From positions 1,736,001-1,800,000 of the forward strand of contig NZ_AP024900.1 in NCBI RefSeq assembly GCF_024347075.1: DNA of 64,000 nt, read 5' to 3'. A program made the translations under genes and the position numbers. The notes below the pieces were generated by a model. That model was not told where the DNA came from. It worked only from the letters and a program-made list of their open reading frames with translations, and did no database searches. Below are positions 9,641 through 20,392 of the stretch, in pieces. Position 1 is the stretch's first letter. Every line of letters starts with the position of its first letter. The stretch is from Vibrio rarus (GTDB lineage Bacteria > Pseudomonadota > Gammaproteobacteria > Enterobacterales > Vibrionaceae).

Positions 9641-10192
9641 TTAGGGCTGTGAATGCTTTTGAAAGAACAAGGTTAAGCGGCCAAACTCAATCCCTAGCTT
9701 GCGAATGGAAGTGACATTAAATACATGCTCATTGTCTTGTCGATATAACCAGTCATCAAAATGCACCATCACGCTAGAATCCCCTCTTGGCAGAGCAAAA
9801 TCATAACGCCAATGCAAGGCATTGCCCACTTCCCTTCCCTGTGCCACGCCCACTACATCGTCTGCGCGACCTTCATAAGAGCCATCCGCTAAGCGAGTAA
9901 TGCGCCAAATACGCGTTGTATTTTCGCCATCGGCAAATACAAAATCTTCATGGAGGGTTAAGGTGTCTCCCTCTACCTGCCCATGTAACGCCACTTCAAA
10001 GCGTCGCGTTTGTTTTCCGCTGCGGTCTTGCACCATGCCCCATGCCGTTACATGACCTGAGAAGTAGCCGAACAAATCAAACTGTGGCGTCTGCTTTTGA
10101 TACTCATTTAAATGGGCACCGCAGCCCACCAGCGTCACTATCGCCAGCAGGGCAAATAAAAAACCGCGCACTTTCCTGCCTAGTCTGTTCAT
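9641..10192 (-). CDS. DUF3833 lipoprotein
   Basis: The product (183 residues from the ATG at 10192) begins with a signal peptide and lipobox ending LVGC, so it is a lipoprotein. The rest is a beta-rich DUF3833 domain (LFGYFSGHVTAWGMVQDRSG.., ..WLYRQD) of unknown biochemical role. The ATG overlaps the preceding stop codon (TAATG), which supports this start over one 21 codons upstream and shows coupling. It is the last gene of the lipid-modification operon, where DUF3833 proteins commonly accompany the CFA-synthase-like and DUF1365 genes. Confidence 0.85.
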   Translation of the reverse strand: MNRLGRKVRGFLFALLAIVTLVGCGAHLNEYQKQTPQFDLFGYFSGHVTAWGMVQDRSGKQTRRFEVALHGQVEGDTLTLHEDFVFADGENTTRIWRITRLADGSYEGRADDVVGVAQGREVGNALHWRYDFALPRGDSSVMVHFDDWLYRQDNEHVFNVTSIRKLGIEFGRLTLFFQKHSQP

Positions 10193-10770
10193 TATTGCGC
10201 CATCCCTATTAATTGCTTTCTCTGTTTTGGATATTCTGTATTCGGTGACAGCCAAATAGCCAAAAACGCATCGTTTAGCGCTTCATCATCAATGTGACCA
10301 CGCATTTCTGTGACGCCATCATTACGAATATAAATAAATGCTCCCCCCTGACCGTCGCTGATATACACCAACTGTTCGCCATTGGCCACATCTGGATAAA
10401 TGCCCCCTAAACGTCGAGCCCACGGTTGCCATTGATCTTGCCCATAACCTAAGTGTTGCCATTGTTTTTTGGTTTCTTTTAATAAATGTTGTTTTGAAAT
10501 GTCTCGCTCATAGGTAATGGATAACGCCAGTGGATGAGGGGTAATATCCACACCCACTTGATAGCGACCTTGTGGCGCACGCAACTCTGAAGTGTAAATA
10601 TCAAAAAACAGCACGTTTAAATCGGCCTTACCTACGGTAGGCCATTGAGCCCACTGTTGCGTCTGTTGACCGATGGTGTTTGGCTGAGCCATAGAAGAAG
10701 TAGAGGTGAAAAAAGTACTGAGCATAACAACAGCGCTTCCAATAACAACATTAATCTGAATTTTGCTCAT
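10192..10770 (-). CDS. Chalcone isomerase-like secreted protein
   Basis: A 192-residue protein with a signal peptide (cleavage likely after SSMA) and a chalcone-isomerase-like domain (WPTVGKADLNVLFFDIYTSEL, DISKQHLLKET, later DAFLAIWL). Bacterial members of this fold have no known flavonoid role; a fatty-acid or lipid-binding function is plausible from the fold's plant relatives and from the operon. It overlaps the DUF2878 gene by 20 bases and the DUF3833 gene by one. Confidence 0.82.
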   Translation of the reverse strand: MSKIQINVVIGSAVVMLSTFFTSTSSMAQPNTIGQQTQQWAQWPTVGKADLNVLFFDIYTSELRAPQGRYQVGVDITPHPLALSITYERDISKQHLLKETKKQWQHLGYGQDQWQPWARRLGGIYPDVANGEQLVYISDGQGGAFIYIRNDGVTEMRGHIDDEALNDAFLAIWLSPNTEYPKQRKQLIGMAQ

Positions 10771-11281
10771 GATCCAATCCCTTACCTTGCTTTTGTAACA
10801 CGTTTAGGGAGTAAATCATCGCAGTCAGTAAGCAAAACCATTCAACAAACACTATCACCAAGGTAATAACTGTTGAGTAGGGCCAATGTACCGCTGCAAA
10901 CTTCAGTCCAGCATAATAACTGCCGGCGGCTCCCAACGCTCCTACTATACATACGATAAACTTAGGGAAATGGGTCAAAATGGTGCGCATTTGATAGGCA
11001 TACCAAACAAAAATACCCCATAACAACAGCAACCACAGCGGCAACCATGGGGTTGGAAAAATAAATAACCCTGTGTATTGATTAAAGGAATCCAACACTA
11101 TGCCACATAGCACAAAGCCCACCAGCCACCTAAGGTGAATGTCACGCTGCCAATAAGAAAACACCACGCTAGCTACAACCGCGATAACTAACCAAACTTG
11201 AGTGCTCTCTTGACCCAGCACAGCTAAAAACCACAACAGCTGAAACCACACTGATTTCACCAACAAGGGCTTATTCATCAT
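10751..11281 (-). CDS. DUF2878 membrane protein
   Basis: The 176-residue product has five to six hydrophobic segments and matches the DUF2878 pattern (FQLLWFLAVLGQ at the start, PWLPLWLLLLWGIFVWY in the middle, SYYAGLKFAAV near the end). No function is known for the family. It starts four bases after the CFA-synthase-like gene and overlaps the chalcone-isomerase-like gene, so it is an integral part of the operon. Confidence 0.83.
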   Translation of the reverse strand: MMNKPLLVKSVWFQLLWFLAVLGQESTQVWLVIAVVASVVFSYWQRDIHLRWLVGFVLCGIVLDSFNQYTGLFIFPTPWLPLWLLLLWGIFVWYAYQMRTILTHFPKFIVCIVGALGAAGSYYAGLKFAAVHWPYSTVITLVIVFVEWFCLLTAMIYSLNVLQKQGKGLDHEQNSD

Positions 11282-11285
11282 CGGC

Positions 11286-12560
11286 CTATTGTGGGTTTCT
11301 AAATGTAAGGTGCACCGTGCTAATACGTTGGGCTAAAAAGCCGCCTTCACAATAACAAAGGTAATAGCGCCACATGCGCATAAATCGCTCATCATAGCCT
11401 AAAGTGGCAAGCTCTTTTTCTGCCTGATTAAAGCGATGTAACCACTCCCTTAGGGTGCGAGCGTAGTCCATGCCTATATCATGCAGATCGTGTAATACTA
11501 ATTGGCTGTGCTGGGTGGTTTGTTGTAACAGATGAGTCACGGAAGGGAGAAATCCGCCAGGGAAAATGTACTTTTGGATAAAGTCGACACTGTTGCAGTA
11601 AGCGTCGAAACGCTGATCGGCAATAGTGATGGCCTGAATGGCCATAATAGCCCCTGGCTTCAATAGTCGTTGGCAGGTGGTGATGTATGAGGGCAGATAC
11701 GCCTTCCCTACTGCCTCTATCATTTCAATAGAAACTAGCTTGTCGTATTGCCTTTCTAAGTCTCGATAGTCTTTCTTTAATAAGGTAATACGCTGCGAAA
11801 GCCCCGCCTGTTCTACTTTTTGTTTCGCATAGCTAAACTGTTCTTCGGAAATGGTGGTGGTGGTCACGCGGCAACCGTATGTTTGCGCCATATAGATGGC
11901 CATAGCGCCCCATCCAGTACCGATTTCTATTACATGATCTTCAGCCTTTAGCTGTAATTGTTGACACAATCGGTCCATTTTATTTATTTGTGCTTGCTCT
12001 AGTGTGTCGTCGTCTTGGTGATAGAGCGCGGCGGAATAAAGCATGTTACTGTCCAAAAAACGCGTGTATAACTGATTGCCTAAATCATAATGGGCACCAA
12101 TATTTTTTTTCGAATTGGCGTGCGTGTTGCGGTTTAACCAATGCCCAGCTTTATACGCCCAGCGTTTAAGCACACTTTGCTTGCTACTCATGCCATCCAA
12201 AGTATTCAGATTACGGGCCATAAACTCCATCACCGCCGTCAAGTCACAACTTTCCCACATTCCGTCAATATAGGCTTCCCCTGCGGCGATACTTCCACCA
12301 CTGAGCAGTCGCGTATAAAAATCTGGGTGCAGTATTTCAATACTGGCATGAAACGGGTGACGGCTAAGGCCAAACTCTTGTAACGAAACCTGACTATCAA
12401 ATCGCTCTATGAGGGTAAGTGAGCCATAACTCACATTGTGCAGATAATTAAAAATTAAAGCACGAGCGGAGCGTTGCCAAGGTGAGAGCATCTTTTCAAT
12501 GGCGGGATTGTTGTGCAGAACGCCCTGCTTTGCGATCAATAAGGACTTAGTGTTGTGCAT
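11286..12560 (-). CDS. Cyclopropane-fatty-acyl-phospholipid synthase family methyltransferase
   Basis: This family transfers a methyl or methylene group from S-adenosylmethionine to the double bond of fatty acyl chains in membrane phospholipids. The 424-residue product has the N-terminal lipid-binding region, the family motif AHYDLGN, the SAM site VIEIGTGWGAM and the following TTTTISEEQ, and YIFPGGFLPS. Its length fits the family. Whether it makes a cyclopropane, or a methylated chain used as a furan-fatty-acid precursor, cannot be decided from sequence. It lies between DUF1365 and DUF2878 genes rather than alone as the housekeeping cfa does, so I leave the symbol blank. Confidence 0.9.
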   Translation of the reverse strand: MHNTKSLLIAKQGVLHNNPAIEKMLSPWQRSARALIFNYLHNVSYGSLTLIERFDSQVSLQEFGLSRHPFHASIEILHPDFYTRLLSGGSIAAGEAYIDGMWESCDLTAVMEFMARNLNTLDGMSSKQSVLKRWAYKAGHWLNRNTHANSKKNIGAHYDLGNQLYTRFLDSNMLYSAALYHQDDDTLEQAQINKMDRLCQQLQLKAEDHVIEIGTGWGAMAIYMAQTYGCRVTTTTISEEQFSYAKQKVEQAGLSQRITLLKKDYRDLERQYDKLVSIEMIEAVGKAYLPSYITTCQRLLKPGAIMAIQAITIADQRFDAYCNSVDFIQKYIFPGGFLPSVTHLLQQTTQHSQLVLHDLHDIGMDYARTLREWLHRFNQAEKELATLGYDERFMRMWRYYLCYCEGGFLAQRISTVHLTFRNPQ

Positions 12561-12585
12561 AATGAAAAGCCTCCTGCTTTACCTA

Positions 12586-13320
12586 TTATTTATGTTTCGC
12601 TGGGTGCGCGTATAGCGGCACTTTCTTTAACCATAACTTCAGCGCATGCCAGTAAATGCCTACTATCATTTTTACTGCCATTATTGGCGTAGAGATCAAT
12701 TGTTTAATTAAATTTTTACTGGTAAATGGATAACCTTTCATCATCAATGTGGCATCAAACTCCTTTGTCTGCCGATGACACTCTAGATGAACCAGTAAAC
12801 GGCGCGATAGTGGCTTGAGCTTCCAAACATACTGTTGCTGTAACGGGTTAAACGGTGACACATGAAATTGCTTCTCATGCTGCCAATTTTCACTGTTGAT
12901 TCCCGGTTGCGCACTAATGGCATAGTAGTGACGTTCATTCCAAGGCGTGTTACTCACCTCCGCTAATAATGTGCGCCATTGCCCTTTGTCATCATAAACA
13001 TAGTAGAAATTCACTGGACTAAAATAGAGACCTAAATACCTAAGGTGCACCACAGCCAAAACCTTGCCGCTATAACTCTCCCCTGTCAGTTGCAACACTT
13101 TGCGTTGCACCGCACTTTTAAGGCATCCCTCTCCCACGTAATCGGCGCGACGAAAGCGCGCCCAGTGCCACCACCTTTGGCCAAAGCCCCATACCGTTTG
13201 TTGCAGTGTTTCCATCTCATCCAGATCAATGCACGGCATAAATATGGGATAGTTCAGATCATGTTTCACGGGGGTAAAGCGGCGATGCCTTACCTCACCT
13301 AGCATCAGGGCACTCTTCAT
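12586..13320 (-). CDS. DUF1365 protein
   Basis: A 244-residue DUF1365 protein (start MKSALMLGEVRHRRFTPVKH, then YFSPVNFYYVYDD and HVSPFNP). The family has no proven reaction, but it is very often beside a flavin amine oxidase and a CFA-synthase-like gene, as here. Its ATG overlaps the stop of the amine oxidase gene (ATGA), and the CFA-like gene follows after 25 bases. Confidence 0.88.
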   Translation of the reverse strand: MKSALMLGEVRHRRFTPVKHDLNYPIFMPCIDLDEMETLQQTVWGFGQRWWHWARFRRADYVGEGCLKSAVQRKVLQLTGESYSGKVLAVVHLRYLGLYFSPVNFYYVYDDKGQWRTLLAEVSNTPWNERHYYAISAQPGINSENWQHEKQFHVSPFNPLQQQYVWKLKPLSRRLLVHLECHRQTKEFDATLMMKGYPFTSKNLIKQLISTPIMAVKMIVGIYWHALKLWLKKVPLYAHPAKHK

Positions 13321-14735
13321 GCGGCGCCCTGTTGCGGCTTAGCTGCCTGTGGTTTAGCTGCCTGTGGTTTAGTTGCCCGTGGTTTCGTTGACAGTGGTTT
13401 AGTTGCAGACGATGATTGGGATTGGCTTAAGGTCTTTTTACTGACCTGAGTTAAATGAGAAGCAATAGGGTCACCGCAGGTTAACCCCTCAATGCCCTTC
13501 ACCACATTCAGTGCACTGACCACGCCATCTTCGTGAAATCCATTTCTCCAATATGCGCCACAAAACCAGCTGTTGTTTTTCCCCTGTAATTCATGGGCAC
13601 GTTGCTGCGCGGCTATCGACGGCAAGCTAAACACTGGATGATCATAAATAAAGGTCTTTAATACCTTTTGTTTATTGATATTAGCGCCATTGTTGAGGGA
13701 GACACAAAAGGTGTGCGGTGATCGAATATGTTGCAGGATATTCATGTTATATGTCAGCGTTGGCTGCTTGTGCTGTTGGTTGTGGCCCCCTTCAATGTAG
13801 TAATTCCAAGAAGCCCACGCTTTAGACCGTTTTGGTAGCCATTGTTCATCGGTATGTAAAATCACTTCATTGGCTTGATAGCGCATACAGCCAAGAATGT
13901 CATTCTCCACCGCGGTGCTTTCTTCTCCAAGGATCTTCAGTGCTTGGTCACTATGACAGGCAAAAATCACTTGGTCGAAGCTCTGCCACTCCCCGTTCAC
14001 CTGCAACTTGATACCAGCTGAGGTCCTTTGCACTTTTTCAACGGCACTGCGTAACTGAATGTTATCGGCAAAGCCTCGGCATAAAGGCTCAATATAGGCA
14101 CGCGATCCCCCTTCAATGACATACCATTGTGGCCTGTTTTTGATGTCTAATAAGCCGTGATTTAAAAAAAAGCGTAAGAAAAAAGTCAACGGGAAAGCGC
14201 GCATGTCTGCCAATGTGGATGACCAAATGGCAGCCCCCATGGGTAAGATGTAGTTTTCGCTAAAATAATCACTAAACTGGTGCTGCTGTAAAAATGTACC
14301 CAATGTTTGATCATTAACAGACTCGTCGGCCACTACGGTTTTTGCTAGCTTATTAAAGCGAATTATCTCTCTAATAAAGGCATAAAACTTAGGGTTAAAC
14401 CAGTTTCGTTTTTGCGCAAATAAATGGCTCAGTCCGTGGCCATTGTATTCCAAACCATTACCATCATTGCGCACGCTAAAGCTCATTTGCGTCGCTCTGC
14501 CCTTAACCCCAATTTCATTCATCATCTGTATAAAATTAGGGTAGGTTCTGTCGTTATAGACAATAAACCCCGTATCCACACTGTAGGACACCCCTTCCAC
14601 TACAACATCCACGGTAGCGGTATGCCCACCAATATAGTCGTTAGCTTCAAAAAGGGTGACATCATGTTGCTGGTGTAGACGATATGCGCAAGTTAAACCG
14701 GAAATACCTGTGCCAATAATTGCTATTTTCATCAC
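13317..14735 (-). CDS. FAD-dependent amine oxidase-like protein with repetitive C-terminal tail
   Basis: The 472-residue product begins with a dinucleotide-binding fold (IAIIGTGISGLTCAYRL) and the acidic end of strand two (LFEANDYIGGHT), as in flavin amine oxidases and desaturase-like oxidoreductases. Relatives in this operon context are predicted to oxidise or desaturate acyl chains. The last 40 residues are a K/P/A/Q-rich low-complexity tail with repeats of TKPQAAKP type, encoded by a 15-bp tandem repeat, and not expected in the enzyme core. Four-base overlaps with both neighbours show tight coupling. Confidence 0.88.
   Translation of the reverse strand: MMKIAIIGTGISGLTCAYRLHQQHDVTLFEANDYIGGHTATVDVVVEGVSYSVDTGFIVYNDRTYPNFIQMMNEIGVKGRATQMSFSVRNDGNGLEYNGHGLSHLFAQKRNWFNPKFYAFIREIIRFNKLAKTVVADESVNDQTLGTFLQQHQFSDYFSENYILPMGAAIWSSTLADMRAFPLTFFLRFFLNHGLLDIKNRPQWYVIEGGSRAYIEPLCRGFADNIQLRSAVEKVQRTSAGIKLQVNGEWQSFDQVIFACHSDQALKILGEESTAVENDILGCMRYQANEVILHTDEQWLPKRSKAWASWNYYIEGGHNQQHKQPTLTYNMNILQHIRSPHTFCVSLNNGANINKQKVLKTFIYDHPVFSLPSIAAQQRAHELQGKNNSWFCGAYWRNGFHEDGVVSALNVVKGIEGLTCGDPIASHLTQVSKKTLSQSQSSSATKPLSTKPRATKPQAAKPQAAKPQQGAA
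13337..13410. repeat. Short tandem repeat, 15-bp units, at the 3' end of the amine oxidase gene
   Basis: About five imperfect units of CCTGTGGTTTAGCTG type lie in tandem. In frame they encode the TKP/AAKP tail. Unit number could vary by slippage without breaking the frame. Confidence 0.75.
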
Positions 14736-15463
14736 TGTTTATCCTTAATCAGTTTTTTGGCCAAACCCTGCTGTATTGAGTAGGGTAAACTGCCCAAAAG
14801 CCTTAATATCCAAGTAAAGCGTTTCGGAAAATAAATGTGCGATTTGCCTAAACTTATGCCGTGCTTAATCGCCTTTGATGCCTCTTTTACTGTTACCATC
14901 ATTGGCATTGGAAAATCATTTTTATCCGTTAATGGTGTTTTCACAAAGCCAGGAAAAACTGTGCTAACTTTAATCCCTTTGTGCGCCAAATCTATGGCCA
15001 GTGTGCGCGCTAAATAACTCACCGCCGCTTTAGAAGCGCCATAGGCCTCAGCTCTTGGTAAAGCCATCTCACTGGCGATAGAACCCACTATCACCAAATG
15101 ATCTTTAGGGGCAAAATTCCCCTGAGCCCCTTCTATACAATTGGCTAATCCTACGACGTTAATGGCAAACACCCTTTGTATCAGCGACGCGTCCATCACC
15201 CCATTATTGAGATATTCGCAATCCCCAGCATTAAACAGCCAAGTTGTGGGCTTAGGATCAAGTTTGTCTAAGGCCACTTTACACGAGGCTAAATCGGTAA
15301 TATCAAATTGCAAAGGCATCACGTTTTCACTCATAGTACTGAGCGTTTGCAATTGGGCTGCATTACGGCCACAGGCATACACTTGCCACCCCTCATTGGC
15401 ATAGTCTCTCGCCAACTGTTCACCTATGCCGGAGGTGGCGCCGGTAATTAGAATCGTCTTCAT
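14732..15463 (-). CDS. Short-chain dehydrogenase/reductase in the lipid operon
   Basis: A 243-residue classical SDR: cofactor motif TGATSGIG near the N-terminus, NAG in the fourth strand, and the catalytic YGASK. SDR enzymes use NAD(P)H to reduce or oxidise alcohol/ketone groups; the substrate is unknown, but the context points to an acyl or lipid intermediate. It overlaps both the SnoaL-like gene before it and the amine oxidase gene after it by four bases. Confidence 0.88.
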   Translation of the reverse strand: MKTILITGATSGIGEQLARDYANEGWQVYACGRNAAQLQTLSTMSENVMPLQFDITDLASCKVALDKLDPKPTTWLFNAGDCEYLNNGVMDASLIQRVFAINVVGLANCIEGAQGNFAPKDHLVIVGSIASEMALPRAEAYGASKAAVSYLARTLAIDLAHKGIKVSTVFPGFVKTPLTDKNDFPMPMMVTVKEASKAIKHGISLGKSHIYFPKRFTWILRLLGSLPYSIQQGLAKKLIKDKQ

Positions 15464-15882
15464 GCTTGACCTAACCGTTTTTTGATAGCTCTAATCACGC
15501 TGCCCAATACCGGCAGGTGTTCATAGAGCATTTCACCCATATCAAAATAATCACGATGATGAATAATTTTGCCTCGGCGGAACTTAATATGACTGACCCC
15601 CTGCACGGCCACATCTTTACCACGGTTGAGCTTTGGGTGACGTAAATACATAGTCCAGATAATAAAGCCACTGTCGTCCACTTGATGTTGGCTTTTAATG
15701 TCAAAGCGGCAATCAATGACATTTTGGTACAAGGTATGAAAATATTGAGACAAGGCATCCCAACCATTGAGGGTGTGCGCCGAATCCTCAAATACCACGT
15801 CTTGATGGTAGATCTGAGCCAGATCTTGCAAGGTCTCTTTACTCAGTTTTTGGTATACGTCCGCGACGTTATCGATATCCAT
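15460..15882 (-). CDS. SnoaL-like / NTF2-fold protein, first gene of the lipid operon
   Basis: The 140-residue product is a single NTF2/SnoaL-like domain (LAQIYHQDVVFEDSAHTLNG, WTMYLRHPKLNRG, then HIKFRRGKIIHHRDYFDMGE). Such folds are small enzymes or binding proteins; no function can be given. I prefer the ATG at 15882 because an AGGGAA site lies in front of it; the frame stays open to an ATG at 15912. A candidate ECF-type promoter lies about 140 bases upstream. Confidence 0.83.
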   Translation of the reverse strand: MDIDNVADVYQKLSKETLQDLAQIYHQDVVFEDSAHTLNGWDALSQYFHTLYQNVIDCRFDIKSQHQVDDSGFIIWTMYLRHPKLNRGKDVAVQGVSHIKFRRGKIIHHRDYFDMGEMLYEHLPVLGSVIRAIKKRLGQA

Positions 15883-16022
15883 GATCCATTCCCTAATAGC
15901 TATGACAGACATTCCCTTCCTGCCGGGCTGATGCTAATCGTTATCCGTTTTCGATTGGCTCAATAACACCTTAATTGACTTAGAGCTGTACCAATTAAAA
16001 TGTAGTGTATTTTTCTATTAAC

Positions 16023-16048
16023 TACGTGATTTACAAAATAAAGGATCA
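16023..16048 (-). promoter_or_regulatory. Candidate RpoE/ChrR-type ECF sigma promoter for the lipid operon
   Basis: Read on the minus strand, TGATCC is followed after 16 bases by CGTA. This resembles the promoter of ECF sigma factors controlled by ChrR anti-sigma factors, whose regulon in other proteobacteria includes photolyase, CFA-synthase-like, DUF1365 and amine-oxidase genes. It lies directly after the htpX terminator and about 140 bases before the first gene. The match is by eye; no sigma factor gene is in the window. Confidence 0.6.
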
Positions 16049-16049
16049 A

Positions 16050-16083
16050 AAAAAAAGCTTGGTGAATACACCAAGCTTTTTAA
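16050..16083 (-). terminator. Rho-independent terminator after htpX
   Basis: Perfect stem AAGCTTGGTG / CACCAAGCTT with a four-base loop, followed on the minus strand by a run of T. Confidence 0.9.
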
Positions 16084-17754: not shown

Positions 17755-18432
17755 TTATACGAGGGCGTTGAGATTTATGTATTGACTTAAATCTTGCTCA
17801 TTAATATTGCGCATATAGGGGATTTCACCAATTTTAGGCGCGTCTATTTTTGCCTCTAAAAAAGCCACAATATCTTTATAGTGTTCTTCAAAAGGATTGA
17901 TACGATTGGCCACCCAACCGACAATATCTAATCCATCATGTTTAATCATTTCTTCGCTGAGTATGGCGTGATTTAAACAGCCTAATTTGATACCAACCAC
18001 TAAAACAACTGGGATTTTTTCTGCTACTACCCACTCGGATAAATAGCGCTCAGCCGTGATAGGAACCCGCCATCCTCCAGCCCCTTCAACTAAGACCACA
18101 TCGGCTTTCTCTTGATGTTGCAAAAGTTGCTCTGATAAGCGTTGTGTACAAACCTCTGTACCATCAATTCGCGCGGCAATATGGGGGGATGCCGGAGTCA
18201 CTAGTGCCACCGGATTCACTTGAGAATAGGGTAATGACACACTGGCGGCTTTTTGCAAACACAAGGCATCGCTATTGGTTAAGCCTTGTTCTGTTTGCTC
18301 TGAACCTGCGGCAACGGGTTTATAGCCAATGGTGGAAAAGCCTTGCTGATTAAATGCTTGTAATAAAGCTTTTGAAACCACGGTTTTACCAACGTCCGTA
18401 TCCGTCCCAGCGACAAAAAACGTTTTGTTCAT
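17755..18432 (-). CDS. bioD: Dethiobiotin synthetase BioD
   Basis: BioD uses ATP and bicarbonate to close the ureido ring of 7,8-diaminopelargonate, giving dethiobiotin. The product (225 residues) has the P-loop GTDTDVGKT at the N-terminus and VEGAGGWRVPI in the middle. I start it at the ATG at 18432, which overlaps the bioC stop (ATGA); the open frame runs seven codons further. Last gene of bioBFCD. Confidence 0.95.
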   Translation of the reverse strand: MNKTFFVAGTDTDVGKTVVSKALLQAFNQQGFSTIGYKPVAAGSEQTEQGLTNSDALCLQKAASVSLPYSQVNPVALVTPASPHIAARIDGTEVCTQRLSEQLLQHQEKADVVLVEGAGGWRVPITAERYLSEWVVAEKIPVVLVVGIKLGCLNHAILSEEMIKHDGLDIVGWVANRINPFEEHYKDIVAFLEAKIDAPKIGEIPYMRNINEQDLSQYINLNALV

Positions 18433-19226
18433 TTCTTTATTAATCCTAGGCACACGCGATACGTTGCCGGTAATCTGAAGTTATTCGGATAAAGGTCTTG
18501 GTACGCCTGTTCGACCTTAAGAAGTGTGCTTCGTTTTGTGAGACCTTGACTGCGACCGCCAATTTGAGTCGCACCAATACCTTTAAGATCTTTCATCAGA
18601 TTAAAAGCACTGTCGTACCAATAAGTCATTGGAATATACCTTACCTGATGCCTTTTGCACCTCGCTTGCGCCAACGCAATTTTTATCGAATTTTCACTAA
18701 GGAACTGCTTAACATGTTGATATTGATCAACACGAGCCCAAGCCTGTTTTAATTCAAACAACGAACCTTCGGCGAGAGTAGAAAATAATGCACGGCCACC
18801 AGGCTTTACCACTCGTTGTAACTCGGCTATGGGTACAGTTAACTCTTTGCACCATTGTAGCGCTAGGCTTGAAACGACATAGTCAAATTGGCTATCGGCA
18901 AAAGGAATGTGCTCTGCATCTCCTAAACAATAACTGGCGTGTTGCTGGCAACGTAAGCGCGCTTGAGTCAGCATTTGTTCTGACAAATCCAATGCCACAA
19001 CCGTGGCGCCTCTAGCAATGAGTTGTTGGGTAAAATACCCCGTGCCACATCCCACATCCAGTATGTGACACTGGCTAAGGTTGCGGGGCAAATAGAGCAA
19101 CATCTCCTCAACGACATCTCGTTGAAATTGAGCATGTTTGTCATAATCTATGGCCGCGCGACCAAACGCTTGAGCTATAGCGCGCTTCTCTGCGCTGATG
19201 TTGTCAACCTCAGAGCACGAAGTCAT
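18429..19226 (-). CDS. bioC: Malonyl-ACP O-methyltransferase BioC
   Basis: BioC methylates malonyl-ACP so that the fatty-acid enzymes can extend it to pimeloyl-ACP methyl ester, the first committed steps of biotin synthesis. The 265-residue product has the SAM motif ILDVGCGTGYF near residue 60. It overlaps bioF and bioD by four bases each. No bioH esterase is in the window. Confidence 0.94.
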   Translation of the reverse strand: MTSCSEVDNISAEKRAIAQAFGRAAIDYDKHAQFQRDVVEEMLLYLPRNLSQCHILDVGCGTGYFTQQLIARGATVVALDLSEQMLTQARLRCQQHASYCLGDAEHIPFADSQFDYVVSSLALQWCKELTVPIAELQRVVKPGGRALFSTLAEGSLFELKQAWARVDQYQHVKQFLSENSIKIALAQARCKRHQVRYIPMTYWYDSAFNLMKDLKGIGATQIGGRSQGLTKRSTLLKVEQAYQDLYPNNFRLPATYRVCLGLIKK

Positions 19227-20392
19227 GATGCATCCTTAGCTGGGTTCATAAGTTCAAACTGCTCCAGTTTGTGCGCTAGCGTCAGCACGTGATGAGGCAG
19301 GTGAGATGCGGATAAGGTAATGCGAATTCTGGCTTTATCTTTGGCTACGGTAGGCGGGCGGATAGCCGTGGCCCATAGGCCCTGTTGACGCAAAAAGTCT
19401 GCCAATGCCATAGCGCGCGTTGAACTGCCCGCTAAATAGGGTTTAATGGCGGTCTGTGTATGCACAAAGCCTGGTAAATGGGCTACGGCTTGCGTGTACA
19501 CGTCTTGTAAGTGAGCTAAATGCTGACGACGCCACTGTTGATTGCGGGCGAGGTGTACCGAATGTGTTACCGCCACGGCTTGTGCGGCAGGCATGGCGGT
19601 AGAATAGACAAAATGGCGTGCAAATTGGCGTAAATAGTGCGCGGTATTGCTATCACATAAAATGGCCGCCCCTTGTACACCCAATGCTTTACCAAAGGTC
19701 ACCATCAATAGGTTCGGGGTAATGCCATGCACGCTACAACTGCCTTGTCCTTGCTCACCTAACACGCCAATACCATGAGCATCATCCACCATTAGCCATG
19801 ACCCATGATGCTGACACAAAGTGGCGATGTCCCCCAAGGGAGCGCAGTCGCCATCCATACTAAATACCCCTTCTGTTACCACTAGGCTCGGCCCATGTTT
19901 TTGTAACAGCTGTTGCAAGCGCGCTGGGTTATTATGGGAAAAACGCTGCATTTTACCCGGACTTAACATTCCCGCTTCCATTAATGAGGCGTGATTGAGT
20001 TTGTCTTGTAATAAACAATCGTCTTTTTGCAGTAGAGTAAACAGCGCTGCTTGGTTGGCACTAAAACCGGAGTTAAACAACAGCGCTTGTTCAAAGCCTA
20101 ACCAGTCACACAAAGTGTCTTGTAACCTTTGGTGGGCGTGCGTTTGTCCAGTCACCATAGGCGAGGCGGCACTGCCTGCACCGTATTGGTCAATGGCCGA
20201 AATCCACGCTTTCTTGAGGGCTTCATCATTGGCTAACCCCAAATAATCGTTACTTGAAAAGTTTATGTACTCTTGCTTTCCATCGTAAATTTTATGGGTA
20301 TTGCCCCCCTTAATTGGGGTGACAGTACGAGTTAAGCCTTGTGCACTGCGTTGTTGCAGTGCCTGTTGCATACGTGACTCAAACCGTGGCAT
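19223..20392 (-). CDS. bioF: 8-amino-7-oxononanoate synthase BioF
   Basis: BioF is the pyridoxal-phosphate enzyme that joins pimeloyl-ACP and L-alanine. The 389-residue product shows [10 protein letters not shown] near the N-terminus, [10 protein letters not shown] for the cofactor aspartate, and [11 protein letters not shown] with the Schiff-base lysine. Its start overlaps the end of bioB by 14 bases. Confidence 0.96.

Follow-up and report, generated by a model that had tools for sequence, protein, structure and literature searches.

What does an eight-gene operon of Vibrio rarus make, and which regulator reads the promoter-like site in front of it when no sigma factor is encoded nearby? The operon lies on the minus strand of a 64,000-nucleotide stretch of contig NZ_AP024900.1 (i.e., the window), where eight consecutive open reading frames (ORFs) occupy positions 9641 to 15912 in one direction. 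We estimate a probability of roughly 0.85 that it is a furan-fatty-acid (Ufa) operon of the RpoE-ChrR singlet-oxygen regulon (ECF11 type; ECF, extracytoplasmic function) in a relative of V. superstes, V. breoganii, and V. halioticoli. A first-pass annotation of the window had proposed a photo-oxidative membrane-protection operon, and this proposal is supported by a ChrR-associated sigma factor in the genome, by a conserved promoter, and by a contiguous trio of FAD, DUF1365, and cyclopropane fatty acid (CFA) synthase-like genes together with the described Ufa enzymology (PMC7380195). The system is known in kind (i.e., the core RpoE-ChrR regulon plus furan fatty acid enzymes), and the operon is an example of it, not a new system. 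To this the analysis adds the location of the sigma operon, evidence that the promoters are conserved, two types of misleading in-gene motif matches, a His-to-Gln marker in the methyltransferase, and predicted folds for two of the accessory products.

The genome (three contigs; 3.88 Mb) encodes one ChrR-family protein (TIGR02451, 240 bits; cut-off, 124.5). Its gene immediately follows an ECF sigma gene (C1:613530-614782), and about 1.1 Mb of the same contig separates the pair from the operon; the gene before chrR carries sigma-70 regions 2 and 4. The genome thus holds a ChrR-type ECF sigma factor, whose absence would have refuted the first-pass annotation. The sigma gene is the third in a LON-DUF4397-rpoE-chrR operon, and a promoter-like site of the type seen before the eight-gene operon, TGATCG-N15-CGTA, precedes the LON gene at the operon start (L105:5461). 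Among 27 loci examined, including that of the window's genome, a LON gene is present in 21, of which 18 carry a site matching at least 9 of 10 positions within 200 bases upstream (misses, L109, L111, and L117), a count made without a null comparison. Another match, TGATCC-N17-CGTATA (C1:613284-613311), lies some 220 bases upstream of where rpoE starts; it was rejected as the sigma gene's own promoter because it falls inside the DUF4397 coding sequence. The DUF4397 gene (L105:6113-7486) stands between LON and rpoE here and in four Vibrio loci of the split arrangement (i.e., with sigma-chrR apart from the operon; L107, L108, L112, and L113).

The operon's own site, TGATCC-N16-CGTA (16048 to 16023, minus strand), begins three bases past the end of the stem of the intrinsic htpX terminator (16052 to 16081, minus strand; a 13-pair stem followed by a T run). 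Across the genome, this pattern and its reverse occur equally often (6 versus 6), so that a lone match is weak proof of a promoter. Judged from the sequences, what decides that the operon promoter is real is its conservation across loci. In a set comprising the window and 11 split-arrangement Vibrio loci, nine of the 12 upstream regions match at least 9 of 10 positions and five match all 10, whereas 1.0% of dinucleotide shuffles and 3 of 182 other gene-upstream regions reach 9. When named Vibrio loci are included and the count is restricted to loci next to htpX, 27 of 28 htpX-SnoaL gaps match at least 9 positions (null, 0.75%); several of these gaps come from identical or almost identical genomes, and nine of them were already in the 12-region set. 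Sigma-linked loci were excluded from both counts. The N16 spacing is that given for the Pseudomonas syringae consensus (PMC5507510) and for five Shewanella RpoE2 promoters (PMC4336711).

The sole miss among the 28 gaps is L084, from genome G013. The operon of this genome is of the htpX-linked type, yet its sigma factor and ChrR (L111) group in trees with the sigma-linked Vibrio type, and it looks from these trees as if the sigma factor had been replaced. In the same genome, a fasciclin gene adjoins LON-rpoE-chrR.

The distance between sigma factor and operon varies among lineages. In a survey of 41 genomes (i.e., the window's own and 40 relatives), ChrR scored above the cut-off in 32, all of which have DUF2878, as does one of the other nine (Fisher's P = 9e-8, uncorrected for kinship). 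In 15 of the 32 ChrR-positive genomes, a single stretch of sequence covers both sigma-chrR and operon genes; 11 of these genomes belong to the same genus, and the others are G030, G033, G035, and G040, with the last three genes of G030 placed on a separate contig. In the remaining 17 they were not found together; several of these are draft assemblies, and the operon contig of G002 lay outside the data. Some lineages, including the Vibrio group of the window, thus keep the two apart. The lack of a nearby sigma factor and the control in trans proposed earlier would accordingly be a lineage-specific arrangement. Photolyase stands between sigma-chrR and the operon genes in seven of the eight linked genomes examined for it.

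A query with the FAD protein returned 530 relatives in named genomes, and the best 80 loci were used, some of them cut by contig ends. DUF1365 and a CFA-like gene accompany the FAD gene in all 80 of these best loci; SDR is present in 66, DUF2878 in 64, SnoaL in 57, DUF3833 in 33, and the chalcone-isomerase-like gene in 32, and sigma factor and ChrR lie within the locus stretch in 30. The nearest named loci are those of V. superstes, V. breoganii, V. comitans, V. halioticoli, V. ezurae, and V. inusitatus (FAD protein, 74 to 79% identity). Trees of the FAD protein, the CFA-like protein, the sigma factor, and ChrR split the genus into two groups, with several long branches. Horizontal transfer is not claimed, as the one-clade test for the genus was marginal (p-AU, 0.039); of the 30 FAD rows, 23 entered this test and 7 were left out as long or near-identical.

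In the window the eight genes are tightly packed (from SnoaL to DUF3833, spacings of -4, -4, -4, +25, +4, -20, and -1 bases), and the earlier description of the packing, of the coordinates, and of the motif after the htpX terminator was confirmed throughout; the Pfam assignments also agree with its gene names. The three contiguous central genes (minus strand, as are all eight) encode a FAD amine-oxidase-family protein (13317 to 14735; Pfam and locus comparison), a DUF1365 protein (12586 to 13320; 254 bits), and a CFA-synthase-family S-adenosylmethionine (SAM)-dependent methyltransferase (11286 to 12560), which are probably UfaD (fatty acyl desaturase), UfaO (furan-ring former), and UfaM, respectively. 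In Rhodobacter sphaeroides, UfaM is described as methylating cis-vaccenate, UfaD as desaturating the product, and UfaO as using O2 to give the furan, and RSP1087, RSP1088, and RSP1089 as dispensable for the synthesis (PMC7380195). RSP1089 is annotated as a symporter, RSP1088 as hypothetical (its P. syringae counterpart as a lipoprotein), and RSP1087 as a short-chain dehydrogenase (SDR) (PMC7074977 and PMC5507510). The SDR of the window (14732 to 15463; NF004765, 382 bits, below the cut-off of 406) and its DUF3833 protein (9641 to 10192) are probably the counterparts of RSP1087 and RSP1088 and probably belong to the published core regulon, which is reported to hold about eight genes, including those for furan acid (PMC6852236 and PMC5507510). 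Of eight loci examined from a family taken as Rhodobacteraceae (f62), all eight contain FAD, DUF1365, SDR, sigma, and ChrR genes, five contain DUF3833, and four contain the CFA-like gene; sigma-chrR is divergent beside the FAD gene in seven. The gene order of these loci matches RSP_1091-1087.

The sequence of the CFA-like protein bears on the choice between furan and cyclopropane chemistry. In Escherichia coli CFA synthase, the bicarbonate ligands are given as Glu239, His266, and Tyr317 (PMC11387697). At these positions, counted by hand on an alignment in which the chain numbers are ahead by one, the window protein keeps Glu282 and Tyr366 and has Gln309 in place of the histidine. In an alignment of 147 rows, Gln occupies this column in 136 of 136 operon-type copies, including that of the window (operon type being defined by more than 250 bits against the operon profile, not by row-wise adjacency to DUF1365; some copies share a genome). 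The other 11 rows comprise nine with His, one with Gln (the operon copy of L177), and one cut off at that column; the five solved CFA-family relatives compared, of ten listed, all have His. Judged by these residues, the window enzyme is UfaM-like and, since Gln replaces the ligand in every operon-type copy, it should methylate rather than cyclopropanate. The glutamine may itself cause the change of product. No publication on this marker was found among the open-licence PMC titles and abstracts listed, subscription papers and the text of PMC12089945 being outside this scope; the words "bicarbonate" and "glutamine" are absent from PMC10876521, and "UfaM" and "furan" from PMC11387697. In genome sequences, this one residue may serve to separate UfaM from cyclopropane synthase. 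The analysis as a whole links the Vibrio operon, whose CFA-like gene was read as cyclopropane synthesis in V. cholerae (PMC5241685), to furan fatty acids.

If the protein were an ordinary cyclopropane synthase after all, the operon would protect the membrane by cyclopropanating double bonds, and the FAD and DUF1365 proteins would act on the cyclopropane chain. The window protein does align with E. coli CFA synthase over 350 residues, no other protein of the genome matches the CMAS family strongly (271 bits for the window protein; 28.4 for the runner-up, barely above the cut-off of 27), and such genes carry the older annotation of cyclopropane/cyclopropene fatty acid synthesis (PMC7074977), VC1122 of V. 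cholerae being termed CFA synthase (PMC5241685). Against these similarities stand the replaced ligand, which is kept as His in the nine other copies and the five solved relatives, and the methyl-branched product described for the operon-type enzymes of Rhodobacter, Rhodopseudomonas, and Halomonas (PMC7380195 and PMC12089945); we consider cyclopropane synthesis improbable. It is rather unlikely, too, that the operon serves mainly for sensing, with UfaD, UfaO, and the lipid product signaling singlet oxygen to ChrR and with membrane protection secondary. In work by Lemke from 2014, furan fatty acids are reportedly scavengers of singlet oxygen, which argues against a mainly sensory purpose, as do the five further operon genes, which have no known sensing role. 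A sensory purpose would fit the normal response of an RSP_1090 mutant to organic peroxide (PMC3818230).

The regulator itself could be another one, i.e., a different sigma factor or a light-responsive repressor could drive the operon, leaving TGATCC-N16-CGTA as a relic. Seven sigma-70 region-2 matches indicate that other sigma factors exist in the genome, V. cholerae is reported to respond to blue light also through a MerR-type regulator (PMC5241685), and the spacing of the operon site (N16) differs from that of the sigma operon (N15). The retention of the site in all but one of the 28 htpX-SnoaL gaps and the co-occurrence of the operon with ChrR across genomes speak against such a relic, and between htpX and SnoaL no sigma-70-like site reached the scan threshold; we regard this explanation as very improbable.

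Several observations weigh against assigning the operon to furan acid synthesis under RpoE-ChrR. Three of the 12 split-arrangement Vibrio regions (L078, L079, and L084) match at only 8 of 10 positions, a level reached by 17% of shuffles. Photolyase is a core-regulon gene elsewhere; the single one found here, on the second contig, lacks a convincing site, its best upstream match (8/10) being within chance. The RSP numbers were matched through the gene order of the f62 loci, through sizes, and through annotation in papers, and the correspondence is only probable. Identity to the f62 counterparts is low (FAD, 38 to 40%; DUF1365, 26 to 31% over at least 0.58 of the length; CFA, 31 to 38%). Finally, Halomonas ufaM, which is consecutive with ufaD and ufaO and gave 11-methyl-octadec-12-enoate in E. 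coli, was on overexpression there also accompanied by cyclic fatty acids (PMC12089945).

For the furan-acid operon under RpoE-ChrR, we infer the following regulation, chemistry, feedback, and accessory roles. Singlet oxygen would free the ECF sigma factor from ChrR, and the freed sigma factor would read its own promoter and the operon site. UfaM would then transfer a methyl group to the double bond of phospholipid-bound cis-vaccenoyl chains, so that a methyl-branched trans-alkene forms instead of a cyclopropane; UfaD would form a conjugated diene, and UfaO would add O2 and close the furan ring, yielding a furan lipid able to scavenge singlet oxygen. In Rhodobacter, RpoE activation under singlet oxygen is reported to require RSP_1090 and RSP_1091 (UfaO and UfaD), and ChrR turnover to require RSP_1090 (PMC3818230). 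Since UfaD and UfaO are needed for activation there, the operon probably contributes to signaling in addition to being its output; by this analogy, the two proteins would promote ChrR turnover and thereby form a positive loop. The SDR, SnoaL, DUF2878, chalcone-isomerase-fold, and DUF3833 proteins would be accessories that probably handle or move modified or oxidized acyl chains across the envelope.

Three of these accessories suggest where such handling might occur. The DUF2878 protein (10751 to 11281) has five hydrophobic stretches and resembles a five-helix membrane protein. The next product (10192 to 10770) is below the family cut-off for chalcone isomerase by sequence, but its AlphaFold2 model adopts the chalcone isomerase fold, and its N-terminal hydrophobic stretch suggests that it is probably exported. 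This fold is common to plant fatty-acid-binding proteins. The DUF3833 protein carries the lipobox LVGC, its Cys24 is invariant in 50 of 50 aligned sequences, and its predicted fold is an all-beta barrel. The three possibly constitute an envelope lipid-handling set and are candidates for such a role under photo-oxidative stress. We tentatively advance, with some doubt, two proposals: that the single His-to-Gln change is both a marker of the switch from cyclopropane synthase to a UfaM-type methyltransferase and a contributing cause of it, and that these three proteins form an envelope relay. On the first, without a tightly held base, the cation left by methyl transfer would lose an allylic proton and the ring would not close. 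On the second, the relay (DUF2878 in the membrane, the chalcone-isomerase-fold protein in the periplasm, and DUF3833 as a beta-barrel lipoprotein) would bind or move furan or photo-oxidized acyl chains between membranes, so that protection would reach the outer membrane. The remaining product, a SnoaL/NTF2-fold protein of 150 amino acids (15460 to 15912; SnoaL_2, 60.9 bits), opens the operon.

Among known systems, R. sphaeroides RSP_1091-1087 with RSP_2144 (ufaD, ufaO, symporter RSP1089, RSP1088, and SDR RSP1087 beside rpoE-chrR; ufaM apart) shares with the window the three synthesis enzymes and the type of sigma/anti-sigma pair, and an SDR and a DUF3833-type gene occur in the related f62 loci. 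Unlike it, the window operon includes ufaM, lacks the symporter, is 1.1 Mb from sigma-chrR, and adds SnoaL, DUF2878, and the chalcone-isomerase-fold gene. The RpoE2-ChrR regulon of Shewanella oneidensis (SO_3386-3374 with phrB and cfa; SO_1986, rpoE2) is described with the same TGATCC-N16-CGTA, a predicted cfa member, and a LON-domain gene with its own promoter (PMC4336711); its photolyase is inside the operon, whereas that of the window's genome is on another contig. Aeromonas salmonicida AXA69_RS13645-13670 has the same order of SnoaL, SDR, FAD, DUF1365, cfa, and DUF2878 and was lowered together with chrR in a riboflavin experiment; in the passages on the cluster in PMC10012899, fatty acid metabolism is proposed, with no mention of furan acid, and chalcone-isomerase-like and DUF3833 genes are not named. 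Within the genus, the V. cholerae sigma-E/ChrR blue-light regulon (VC2302 and VC1122) is described with a CFA-like gene, VC1122, that blue light induces (its own dependence on sigma-E being only presumed here) and with TGATC-N16-18-CGTAW as the sigma-E motif, like the window site; unlike our reading of the window, the system was interpreted as cyclopropane synthesis (PMC5241685).

That motif, TGATC-N16-18-CGTAW, has 41 matches in the genome of the window versus 21 for the reversed control. Among 20 of the 41 that were examined, 17 lie inside ORFs of at least 100 amino acids on either strand, and three lie outside: L125 (where the motif strand points away from the listed gene), L130 (LON-DUF4397-rpoE-chrR), and L141 (fasciclin). 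Genome-wide motif counting is not decisive. The fasciclin-domain gene (L141:1501-2073; C1:1832026), behind the 9/10 site TGATCT-N15-CGTAAC, is a candidate further target of the sigma factor; a table for R. sphaeroides gives induction values for a fasciclin gene together with those for rpoE, chrR, and the ufa genes (PMC7074977). In sigma-linked loci, the motif matches that resemble a promoter upstream of SnoaL were dismissed as coincidences of coding sequence, being photolyase codons for DPxGxFIRK (read by eye); the match is inside photolyase in the seven linked loci where photolyase was located (L074, L076, L085, L087, L092, L104, and L117). Together with DPALSSFAYT in DUF4397, these codons make two types of in-codon false promoters, a warning against regulon lists based on motifs only.

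Two minor observations concern neighboring genes. In L237, L262, L265, and L268, a second CFA gene, of the His type, lies 3 to 5 kb upstream of the FAD-DUF1365-UfaM trio and is followed by a DUF2878-like gene in all four. In the window, bioD-, bioC-, and bioF-like genes (17755 to 20392; ORF translations read by eye) lie upstream of htpX on the same strand.

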